Positions 2,618-8,600 of a stretch of 64,000 bases of DNA are shown here, in pieces. The stretch's first letter is position 1, and each line of letters begins with the position of its first letter. The translations under genes and the position numbers were made by a program. The stretch is from Mycolicibacterium sp. (lineage in GTDB: Bacteria > Actinomycetota > Actinomycetes > Mycobacteriales > Mycobacteriaceae). Location: assembly GCA_020637165.1 (NCBI GenBank), contig JACJWN010000006.1:1-64000 (forward strand), given 5' to 3'. The notes beneath the pieces are model-generated. The model saw only the letters and a list, made by a program, of their open reading frames with translations, was not told the DNA's origin and ran no database searches.

Positions 2618-5600
2618 ATGTGCGCCGATAACGTTTCCCCCCGGCAGAATTCAGGCCCCGGCGGTCACCGCCGAGTCACCGCCGCGTCCGGTTATCCACC
2701 CGGCCGGCCGGTAACGCCTCCAGCGCGCTCGGCATACCACATCGGCCGGGTCGGGGCACTCGCGGTCGCCCTCGGTGTCGGCACGGCGATCCTGGGTTTC
2801 TCCGGCACGGCCGCCGCCGACGCCGGCCGAGGCGACACGGCCGGGTCCGCCGGGGAGGAGTCAAGCCGCACAGGGAACCTTCGGCCCACCCCCGCTAAGT
2901 CCCGGGCCGGCAATCGCCGCAGCCTGCCGGATCGCGGCCTGAGCACCTCCGTAGCACCAGAGGTTCCCACCAGCAACCCAGCCGCTGACGGTGGCGACGA
3001 TGGCACCGGGCCGACGAACCCGGGCCGCCGTGCCGGCGGCGCACGGTCGAGTGCGGCGGCAGAGAACACCCAAGCCCGAAACACCGACGTCCCAGCGACG
3101 GCTGGTATGCCGTCGTCCGCCGACGCGCCCGAGCCTCCCCCCCTGCTCACCGATAGTGGGCCTCTGTCAGCGCCGGAATCGATCGGGGAAGTGGAGGCCA
3201 CGGGCTCCGACGACGGCACCGCTCCAGAAATCGCGGTGACTCCCGAGGTCACGACCACGACAGTTGCACCCCAGGTCCCGGTGATGACGGCGGCAGCCCA
3301 GTCCGAGGCGCTGGCGGAAGCCGACAGCGATCCGCTGGCCTGGCTGGGCGGGGGCGGCGGTAACGGTGGACCCGTTGTTGCGCCGCTGGCGTGGGCCGCA
3401 CTGGCGTCGGCCCGGCGGGAAGAGTTGGCCGGTGCGAAAGCCGAGGTGGCTCCGGCTGCGACGGTGAGTACGGCAGAGCCCGAGGATCCCACCGAGACGC
3501 CGGCTGCTGAAGAGGTGGCTGAGGACGCCACGGGTGACGCTGCTGGTGCTGAGGCCGGGGTCCAGGCCGACCCGGAGGCCGGCGAGGCGACGATCAGCGG
3601 CGAAGTTGGTGAAGACCAGCTGCTGGCGAGCCTGGTCGAACCCGTCATTGCACTGACTGCCGCAGTACCGGCAGCTGCGTCCTTGGATCTGTGCCTCGCC
3701 CTTTGCCTGGCTTTGAAAGCCGCCAAGTCCACAATCGTCAAGGACATTGCGGGTGCCGTTACCGATATTTTCCCCACCGCGGCGGGCACCGTCGCGGACA
3801 CCATCGGGTCCTACGGGTTCGAGATCATCAACGGGTTGATGCTCGAACAGAAGGACAGCGAGATCGCGGGCTATGTCCAACAGCTCTTCAATGACACCAC
3901 CGTGCTCGGCTTCGTCTCGCAGACGGTCGCCGACGACCTGGAGAAATCCTGGAACATACCGCAGGATGCCGCAACCACCGTTGGTAACGCAGTAGCTTTC
4001 TTCATGCAGAATTCCTTCGGAAATTCCGCTGTCGCGTCGGCGTTCGTCCCATTCCTCAAGGGACTGAACCTTCCCACCAACTCCTTCACCGCCCTCGACT
4101 TCGTGATCAAGATTCAAGAGGACGGTGTGACCGGTGCGCTGCTGACTCGTGTCAAACCATCCGACATGCAAACCGCGCTGGTCAACCTCTTTGCCAACTC
4201 CGGTGTCCAAAGTGCGTTCGAAGCAGCCGTGGTCGGCACCGTTGATGTGCTGCTCGGATCGGCCAGCCCGTCATGGGCCCCGCCGGTCAACCCCAACGCC
4301 CTGGCGGATTTCGCCGGCCAACTGGTCGCCACTGCCGTACTGGGAGCCGATAACCCCGGCGTTGCGGCATTGAGCGCCGTGATCAGCGCCGATGTCTCAA
4401 CGCTCTTCGCGGCTGTCGGTGGTGAGGTGGCCACTCTCGCCGGGAACGCCATCATCACCTTGCTCAATCAGAGCGGGGTCTCCGACATCCTGGCCACAGA
4501 CGTCGTCAATGGATTCATCACAGCGCTGGGGGGTAGCGCTCCGTTCCCCAGCCCGGGCTCACTCGGGCCGGCGGCCGGCGTCGCAATCTCGGGTTTTGTC
4601 AGTTCGCTGTTGTCGACCCCCGCGGTTCCCGCAGCGGTGGGCACGTTCATCACCCAGCTCATCAACGGGCTGGCCGACGATTCGGCGGTCCAGACCGAAA
4701 TCGGTCAACAAGTCAGTGCCCTGGTGACCTCGGCTCTCGGCGGTGGACCGCTGGGGGTGGCGGTCGGGCCGCAGGTGGGTGCAGCGGTGCAGGCGCTACT
4801 GGCCGATCAGGCCGTGGTCGACGCACTCAGCAGCACCATCGGAGCGTTGGTGCCCACGTTCTTGGGGCAGCAAGGTGTTGTTTCGGCGCTGGCAACCGCG
4901 GCGGGCCAGCTGGCCGCGGCCGCCCTCGACGGAACCCTCCCCTCGGTGTTGCCGCAGGTGGAAGCACAGCTGCGGGCCAGCACCGCGATCCAGGCCGCTG
5001 TCGGCGTGACCGTCACCGACACAGTCGGGCAGTTGCTGGGGGATTCGGCGCTGTGGCAGGCACTGAACACCACCGCGGTGTCGTTGATCACCGGACTTCT
5101 GGGCGACACCACGGTCCAGCAGGCGCTCCAGCAGCAGATCGCCGCAGAGGTCTCGGCCCTGCTCGGCGGCGGCGACTTGGGCCAGGTTGTCGGCGCCCAG
5201 GTGGGCACAGCCGTGGTCGCATTGGTCACCAACCCGGTGTTCAGCACGGCCCTCGTCGGGCTGGTCGACACCGTGTTCACCGACTTCTTCGGCGCTACCG
5301 GCGTGGTCAGCGCCCTGTCCGACGCCGCCGGCCAGCTCGCCTCTGCCGCTGTGGCCGGGGATCTGGCTTCGGTACTGCCGACGGTGGAAGCGGCCCTGCG
5401 CGCCAACCCCGACATCGATGCCGCGGTCGGTGTGGCCGTCGGCGCCGCGGTCACCCAGCTGCTCTCCGACACCAGCCTGTGGCAGGCGCTGGACACCACC
5501 GTGAGCACCCTGATCAGCGAACTGCTCGGCGACAACGTGGTCCAACAGGCCCTCGACACCGCCATCGCCGCGCAGGTCTCGGCCCTGCTCGGCGGCGGGG

Positions 5601-8600
5601 ACCTCGGCCAGGTCGTCGGCGCCCAGGTCGCCACCGCCCTGGTCGGCCTGATCGCCGACCCCACCGTCATCACCGCCCTGACCGGCCTGGTCGACACCGT
5701 CGCCCAGGACTTCTTCGGCGCCACCGGCGTCATCCCCGCCCTCTCCGACGCCGCCAGCGACATCGCCCTGGCCCTGATCACCGGCGAGGACCTCGCCACC
5801 GCCCTGGCCGCCGCCGGCGCCGCCCTGCGCGCCAACCCCGACATCGATGCCGCGGTCGGTGTGGCCGTCGGCGCCGCGGTCACCCAGCTGCTCTCCGACA
5901 CCAGCCTGTGGCAGGCGCTGGACACCACCGTGAGCACCCTGATCAGCGAACTGCTCGGCGACAACGTGGTCCAACAGGCCCTCGACACCGCCATCGCCGC
6001 GCAGGTCTCGGCCCTGCTCGGCGGCGGGGACCTCGGCCAGGTCGTCGGCGCCCAGGTCGCCACCGCCCTGGTCGGCCTGATCGCCGACCCCACCGTCATC
6101 ACCGCCCTGACCGGCCTGGTCGACACCGTCGCCCAGGACTTCTTCGGCGCCACCGGCGTCATCCCCGCCCTCTCCGACGCCGCCAGCGACATCGCCCTGG
6201 CCCTGATCACCGGCGAGGACCTCGCCACCGCCCTGGCCGCCGCCGGCGCCGCCCTGCGCGCCAACCCCGACATCGATGCCGCGGTCGGTGTGGCCGTCGG
6301 CGCCGCGGTCACCCAGCTGCTCTCCGACACCAGCCTGTGGCAGGCGCTGGACACCACCGTGAGCACCCTGATCAGCGAACTGCTCGGCGACAACGTGGTC
6401 CAACAGGCCCTCGACACCGCCATCGCCGCGCAGGTCTCGGCCCTGCTCGGCGGCGGGGACCTCGGCCAGGTCGTCGGCGCCCAGGTCGCCACCGCCCTGG
6501 TCGGCCTGATCGCCGACCCCACCGTCATCACCGCCCTGACCGGCCTGGTCGACACCGTCGCCCAGGACTTCTTCGGCGCCACCGGCGTCATCCCCGCCCT
6601 CTCCGACGCCGCCAGCGACATCGCCCTGGCCCTGATCACCGGCGAGGACCTCGCCACCGCCCTGGCCGCCGCCGGCGCCGCCCTGCGCGCCAACCCCGAC
6701 ATCGATGCCGCGGTCGGTGTGGCCGTCGGCGCCGCGGTCACCCAGCTGCTCTCCGACACCAGCCTGTGGCAGGCGCTGGACACCACCGTGAGCACCCTGA
6801 TCAGCGAACTGCTCGGCGACAACGTGGTCCAACAGGCCCTCGACACCGCCATCGCCGCGCAGGTCTCGGCCCTGCTCGGCGGCGGGGACCTCGGCCAGGT
6901 CGTCGGCGCCCAGGTCGCCACCGCCCTGGTCGGCCTGATCGCCGACCCCACCGTCATCACCGCCCTGACCGGCCTGGTCGACACCGTCGCCCAGGACTTC
7001 TTCGGCGCCACCGGCGTCATCCCCGCCCTCTCCGACGCCGCCAGCGACATCGCCCTGGCCCTGATCACCGGCGAGGACCTCGCCACCGCCCTGGCCGCCG
7101 CCGGCGCCGCCCTGCGCGCCAACCCCGACATCGATGCCGCGGTCGGTGTGGCCGTCGGCGCCGCGGTCACCCAGCTGCTCTCCGACACCAGCCTGTGGCA
7201 GGCGCTGGACACCACCGTGAGCACCCTGATCAGCGAACTGCTCGGCGACAACGTGGTCCAACAGGCCCTCGACACCGCCATCGCCGCGCAGGTCTCGGCC
7301 CTGCTCGGCGGCGGGGACCTCGGCCAGGTCGTCGGCGCCCAGGTCGCCACCGCCCTGGTCGGCCTGATCGCCGACCCCACCGTCATCACCGCCCTGACCG
7401 GCCTGGTCGACACCGTCGCCCAGGACTTCTTCGGCGCCACCGGCGTCATCCCCGCCCTCTCCGACGCCGCCAGCGACATCGCCCTGGCCCTGATCACCGG
7501 CGAGGACCTCGCCACCGCCCTGGCCGCCGCCGGCGCCGCCCTGCGCGCCAACCCCGACATCGATGCCGCGGTCGGTGTGGCCGTCGGCGCCGCGGTCACC
7601 CAGCTGCTCTCCGACACCAGCCTGTGGCAGGCGCTGGACACCACCGTGAGCACCCTGATCAGCGAACTGCTCGGCGACAACGTGGTCCAACAGGCCCTCG
7701 ACACCGCCATCGCCGCGCAGGTCTCGGCCCTGCTCGGCGGCGGGGACCTCGGCCAGGTCGTCGGCGCCCAGGTCGCCACCGCCCTGGTCGGCCTGATCGC
7801 CGACCCCACCGTCATCACCGCCCTGACCGGCCTGGTCGACACCGTCGCCCAGGACTTCTTCGGCGCCACCGGCGTCATCCCCGCCCTCTCCGACGCCGCC
7901 AGCGACATCGCCCTGGCCCTGATCACCGGCGAGGACCTCGCCACCGCCCTGGCCGCCGCCGGCGCCGCCCTGCGCGCCAACCCCGACATCGATGCCGCGG
8001 TCGGTGTGGCCGTCGGCGCCGCGGTCACCCAGCTGCTCTCCGACACCAGCCTGTGGCAGGCGCTGGACACCACCGTGAGCACCCTGATCAGCGAACTGCT
8101 CGGCGACAACGTGGTCCAACAGGCCCTCGACACCGCCATCGCCGCGCAGGTCTCGGCCCTGCTCGGCGGCGGGGACCTCGGCCAGGTCGTCGGCGCCCAG
8201 GTCGCCACCGCCCTGGTCGGCCTGATCGCCGACCCCACCGTCATCACCGCCCTGACCGGCCTGGTCGACACCGTCGCCCAGGACTTCTTCGGCGCCACCG
8301 GCGTCATCCCCGCCCTCTCCGACGCCGCCGGACAACTAGCAGCCGCCGCAGTGGCGGGGGATCTGGCTTCTGTGCTTCCAGCAGTACTGTCCGCGCTGCG
8401 CACCAACCCCGACATCGACGCGGCGGTCGGAATGACCGTCACTGACGCGGTCACCCAGCTGTTCTCCGACACCACCGTCTGGCAGTTGGTGGGCGCCACC
8501 CTCACAACCCTGACCACCGGACTCCTCGACAACACCGTTGTCCAGCAGTACGCAGGGACGGAGGTCGCAACGCTGGTAACCGGATTCCTGGGTGACTCCC

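Follow-up and report, generated by a model that had tools for sequence, protein, structure and literature searches.

Exact 429-bp repeats in a giant Mycolicibacterium gene for a probably exported, predicted helical-repeat protein, perhaps a surface stalk of variable length

The first 64,000 nucleotides of contig JACJWN010000006.1 (Mycolicibacterium sp., assembly GCA_020637165.1), called the window here, contain a giant gene with a tandem array of 429-bp coding units. This gene raised the question of how its central units became identical and what a protein of this build might be for. Self-comparison of the window at lag 429 gave a single unbroken exact run at 5393-7900 (2508 positions), which is far beyond chance. 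The copies starting at 5393, 5822, 6251, 6680, 7109, and 7538 showed 0 differences over 429 bp, and a seventh, from 7967, kept this identity over 363 bp, up to 8329, before diverging. The array totalled 2937 bp or 6.85 copies, a copy number that rests on a 32-contig assembly. Tandem Repeats Finder placed it at 5051-8329 with a period of 429 and 7.7 copies, the diverged flank being included. A preliminary description had put the unit starts exactly 429 bp apart and the first six units as identical, which was right to the base. Every copy was in frame within the open reading frame (ORF) 2558-10033 (translation P0001). The probable start of the gene was the ATG at 2618, preceded by AGGAGG at 2605-2610, and the stop at 10033 gave a protein of 2471 aa. 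This protein yielded 12 units, each about 143 residues long. Six were identical and six were diverged, three on each side, with the two nearest the array overlapping its edges. The array unit matched the DNA just outside at 74% (4970-5351) and, over part of a unit at 8391-8548, at 79%. When taken in unit frames that overlapped the array edges, the edge units were 84% and 78% alike, and the diverged units farther away were 44-64% like their neighbours.

The origin of this identity was examined in a tree of 104 units from 18 family sequences, which had been picked by a match to the conserved C-terminal module or by adjoining such a match. Units that scored at least 60 and covered 113 or more model positions were kept, and weaker or partial ones were dropped; the unit hidden Markov model (HMM) matched 18/18 of these sequences. 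The end units clustered mostly by position across species, and the central units mostly by gene. The first units of five array genes formed one 9-row set (support 100/99), the penultimate units an 8-row set (99/90), and the last units a 9-row set (99/88). The six exact window copies clustered together, and the relatives G136, G151, G004, and G156, in which the period of 429 was also present, had groups of their own. Type A units formed one set (100/100) with four units of G136, two of G151, and one of G004, and type B units came from G136 (three), G151 (three), and G004 (four). Within a gene, identity was 0.991-1.000 for type A and 0.85-0.97 for type B neighbours and for the pair in G156. Between species, it was 0.737-0.768 for the same unit type, and the end units of G136 were 0.77-0.81 identical to those of G151 and G004. 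This pattern is explained by unequal exchange or gene conversion that took place repeatedly within the gene. There was good support for whole units having been expanded or homogenised separately in each lineage, and the central units were very probably multiplied and kept alike by intragenic recombination. The grouping of central units mostly by gene also supported the suggestion of the preliminary description that the identity reflects recent expansion or continuing gene conversion. Its further claim, that copy number can change by whole 143-residue blocks without a frameshift, held in part. Unit counts differed among the relatives, and the protein length probably changes in whole blocks. The genome collections held one genome per species, so the change in copy number was seen between species only.

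Related units were also found elsewhere in the own genome. The unit profile gave 33 units at E ≤ 1e-5, located in the window gene, in a paralogue at the contig start, and in genes on contigs C4, C28, and C29 near 75 kb. Outside the window gene, they lay at four genomic places, two of which are probably halves of one upstream gene. The N-terminal part of the upstream paralogue probably lies on contig C4 of the assembly, at its 3' end; 36/38 bases agreed between the C4 end and the start of the window contig, and the ends were left unjoined. Contig C28 likewise ended within a family member. The array unit was only 0.43-0.64 identical to the units at other loci of the genome, and homogenisation therefore stays within the gene.

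The family was narrowly distributed. The unit profile matched 4/298 genomes of the order, own included, in 1/76 genera (E ≤ 1e-8), and across the phylum the C-terminal module was found in 3/396 genomes, again counting the own one, and in 1/236 genera (E ≤ 1e-5). In the genus, this module was found in 34/297 genomes (E ≤ 1e-20), with G182 as the closest relative (63%). When 396 genomes of the genus were searched with the array unit at the DNA level, six, own included, matched at E ≤ 1e-10. The best match outside the own genome was again G182 at 74%, and none exceeded 74% over the unit length. Neighbouring units of G182 were 0.57-0.83 alike; at lag 429, stretches of 200 bp reached 0.975, and homogenisation in this relative is partial.

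The window protein carries a hydrophobic leader that ends in an A-x-A-like sequence. It is a probable export signal from its sequence, in agreement with the exported protein supposed earlier. The leader motif was found by pattern in 10/12 other family sequences; it was seen by eye in G292, and in G106 it was lost at the contig end. In the C-terminal module, residues 2345-2372 of P0001 were the most hydrophobic, with a peak mean hydropathy of 2.35. The array unit was rich in Ala, Leu, and Val and had one basic and 15 acidic residues. AlphaFold2 was run on three array units with an input alignment of seven rows of window sequence. The model had seven helices per unit, with a mean predicted local distance difference test (pLDDT) of 74 and a predicted template modelling score (pTM) of 0.54. 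In the C-terminal model, the final stretch had a pLDDT below 50. Foldseek returned zero matches at E ≤ 0.001, and in the Pfam scan of the window protein the 143-residue unit was without any family above the cut-off.

We propose an explanation of the whole for which belief and doubt are about equal. The gene would encode a giant exported protein whose repeating unit, 143 residues long and all-helical, was seen in this genus only. Its central units would have been multiplied and homogenised inside the gene by unequal crossing-over and/or gene conversion, in each lineage separately, with the end units staying fixed as the central units turn over. The leader would export the protein, and the C-terminal hydrophobic helix would retain it in the envelope. 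The repeats might form an extended helical stalk whose length tracks copy number, and this length would be the selected property. The stalk role of the repeats is the more tentative part, a little short of an even chance; by analogy, the protein is perhaps an exported helical-repeat protein that serves as a surface stalk of variable length.

Several observations weigh against this explanation. In the tree, G004_1472 and G156_976 fell outside the group of their gene, the G151 type B fork was weak (95/42), G182b_146 departed from the penultimate set, and the tree tool warned of few columns. Other segments of the window protein exceeded a hydropathy of 1.6, namely residues 362-389 of P0001 (2.04) and a segment in each array unit (1.68); the G136 protein was most hydrophobic in its leader and not in the C-terminal segment. 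A single anchor was not established because of these lesser segments and the G136 case. The window protein had no LPXTG-like (sortase) motif, and the Pfam scan gave no known adhesive domain for it. The AlphaFold2 model was moderate by its pTM, and the other four models had a mean pLDDT of 37-64; a straight rod was not shown for this reason. In addition, the genes of G768 and G776 were longer, at 2824 and 2768 aa when measured from stop to stop, and adjacent units in them shared only 43-71% identity; diverged units were also found in G106, G098a, and G018. Great length needs no identical units in these genes, and identical units are neither required for length nor present in every relative. Lastly, a single neutral burst could account for the window array taken alone.

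Such a burst was weighed as a rival, in which recent duplication by chance unequal exchange gave a length without a selected role. One recent burst accounts for the six exactly identical copies; at mutation rates of 1e-10 to 5e-10 per base and generation, zero changes over 6 × 429 bases put their age at no more than about 2-12 million generations. It also fits that several relatives were without near-identical neighbouring units. However, such neighbours (best pairs 0.946-1.000) occurred in G136, G151, G004, and G156, and their sequence was different in each of these, which points to repeated occurrence in the same gene and unit. We regard the neutral burst as possible and rather unlikely. A somewhat fainter chance was given to a role of the repeats as lipid- or envelope-binding helices, that is, a multivalent binder or envelope filler whose copy number tunes binding capacity. 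The Ala/Leu/Val-rich composition, the excess of acidic residues, and the hydrophobic segment in each copy are consistent with it.

The remaining rival was an assembly artefact, in which the assembler turned fewer copies, or copies with slight differences, into the present copy number or perfect identity. Three contig ends of the own assembly lay inside the gene family out of 64, compared with 0.39 expected for a family that makes up 0.6% of the genome (P 0.007); with C4/C29 counted as one gap, there were two gaps of 32 (P 0.016). Four contig ends of G182 also lay within family members. However, four units were 99-100% alike in G136, which is a single-contig genome, and two were at 99.8% in G151. 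The window array also sits within a 397-kb contig, where non-array sequence flanks it in frame on either side. Arrays of this type are not merely assembly products, since G136 is one contig, and an artefact is improbable. The earlier worry that short-read assemblies would collapse the array was half borne out: comparable arrays in G136 indicated a real kind of feature, and the family did hold three contig ends of the 32-contig assembly.

The proposed exported helical-repeat protein was compared with known systems. Periscope proteins such as SasG, Rib, Sgo_0707, and CdrA are described in PMC8201768, where section 21 gives the search criterion as tandem repeats of more than 50 residues with at least 80% identity. 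The window repeats, with 143 residues and 100% identity over six copies, fall within this range. As in the Periscope proteins of that account, the long tandem repeats are highly alike in DNA and length can change by whole domains, and the window protein is probably exported. It differs from those described there in its 143-residue, all-helical unit without a sortase motif, and its differences in copy number were seen between species only. By analogy, the window protein may work like a Periscope protein in its DNA and in the order of its domains. The examples in section 7 of PMC8201768 came from streptococci, staphylococci, and Pseudomonas; the string 'mycobact' was absent from the main text of the Periscope review PMC9704523, and PMC8201768 was not searched for it. 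One might imagine a mycobacterial periscope class of its own, though we consider it unlikely: envelope-anchored giants built from a seven-helix unit peculiar to the genus, with intragenic recombination resetting their reach, in a family that shares one leader and swaps PGRS-like, TIG, and helical-array modules. A helical version in one actinobacterial genus would offer a direct way to study why the usual divergence of neighbouring domains is avoided in some proteins, and the fixed end units of the relatives beside freely turning-over central units would be its basis. The family also points to genes that are broken or perhaps miscounted in draft assemblies.

PE_PGRS proteins, as described in PMC11939664, are likewise large, repetitive, and probably exported mycobacterial proteins, and relatives such as G136 had a PGRS-like Gly-rich stretch by eye. 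In contrast, the window protein had another leader and a helical 143-aa unit. A Pfam scan of P0001 with E up to 1 listed four families, none of them PE, and Gly-rich PGRS repeats were absent from the translation on reading, a PGRS profile not having been run. The assignment of the window protein to PE_PGRS was rejected on these two grounds. DUF445 (PF04286) matched the upstream paralogue P0002 weakly, at 26.4 bits (E 8.4e-6) where the cut-off is 33.8, and was not listed for P0001. A G768 protein reached 40.8 bits, above the cut-off only as a sum of weak stretches, none with E ≤ 0.01. In the same scan, a G136 protein likewise passed the cut-off of the unrelated MatP_C, and summed scores of the DUF445 type on repeats are therefore untrustworthy.

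Features of the giant gene and its upstream paralogue (positions in the window)
Feature	Position	Strand	Basis
Giant gene with array, 2471 aa from ATG 2618; mechanical ORF from TTG 2558	2618..10033	+	ORF calling, AGGAGG 2605-2610
Hydrophobic leader after an N-terminal extension of about 40 aa, probable export signal	2741..2818	+	hydropathy
Pro/Ala/Ser/Glu-rich low-complexity linker	2819..3622	+	read from translation
Three diverged 143-aa units 5' of the array: 4355-4744, 4748-5170, 5177-5596 (last overlaps array start)	4355..5596	+	unit HMM frame
Array, six exact 429-bp copies and 363 bp of a seventh	5393..8329	+	self-comparison, Tandem Repeats Finder
Three diverged units 3' of the array: 8177-8593 (overlaps array end), 8600-9010, 8993-9412	8177..9412	+	unit HMM
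Conserved C-terminal module common to paralogues and relatives	8543..9763	+	homology searches
Gly-rich helix with the highest hydropathy in the protein, a possible membrane anchor (anchoring inferred)	9590..9673	+	hydropathy, model
C-terminal part of upstream paralogue, open at the first base of the contig	1..2385	+	ORF, homology

The array also stood out in G+C content at third codon positions (GC3), with 0.97 compared with 0.77 before and 0.82 after it within the gene. The 17 other mechanical ORFs of the window, not all of which need be genes, gave 0.51-0.88. Such an excess was absent from the arrays of four relatives. Two minus-strand ORFs, 4796-8335 (1179 aa) and 4807-8910 (1367 aa), lay opposite the array. 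They are probably not genes, and their staying open is expected from the high GC3 and the exact in-frame repeats.

One leader, or close variants of it, began many giant ORFs (window 2741-2818; L039, L040, L041, L076-L079, L084, L086, and L087). The modules behind this leader differed and included TIG domains (C4), PGRS-like Gly-rich stretches (C28 and G136, by eye), and helical units. A PGRS-like Gly-rich giant ORF with a similar leader (L040, 2-3511, minus strand) lay beside the C28 family member in divergent orientation. Section 2.2 of PMC11939664 calls the N-termini of PGRS proteins in M. smegmatis questionable, and the common leader may bear on this point.

Some minor features were also noticed. 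A phosphotransferase-family gene (Pfam PF01636, APH) adjoined the giant gene downstream at window 10045-11184. The ORFs upstream of the C4 family member (L039, 370-3497) resemble, by their sequence, the NADH dehydrogenase subunits NuoM and NuoN. A perfect 16-bp tandem repeat of 4.6 copies was found at L041 8723-8796, and a 30-bp tandem repeat of 3.8 copies with 96% matches was found at window 30094-30207.
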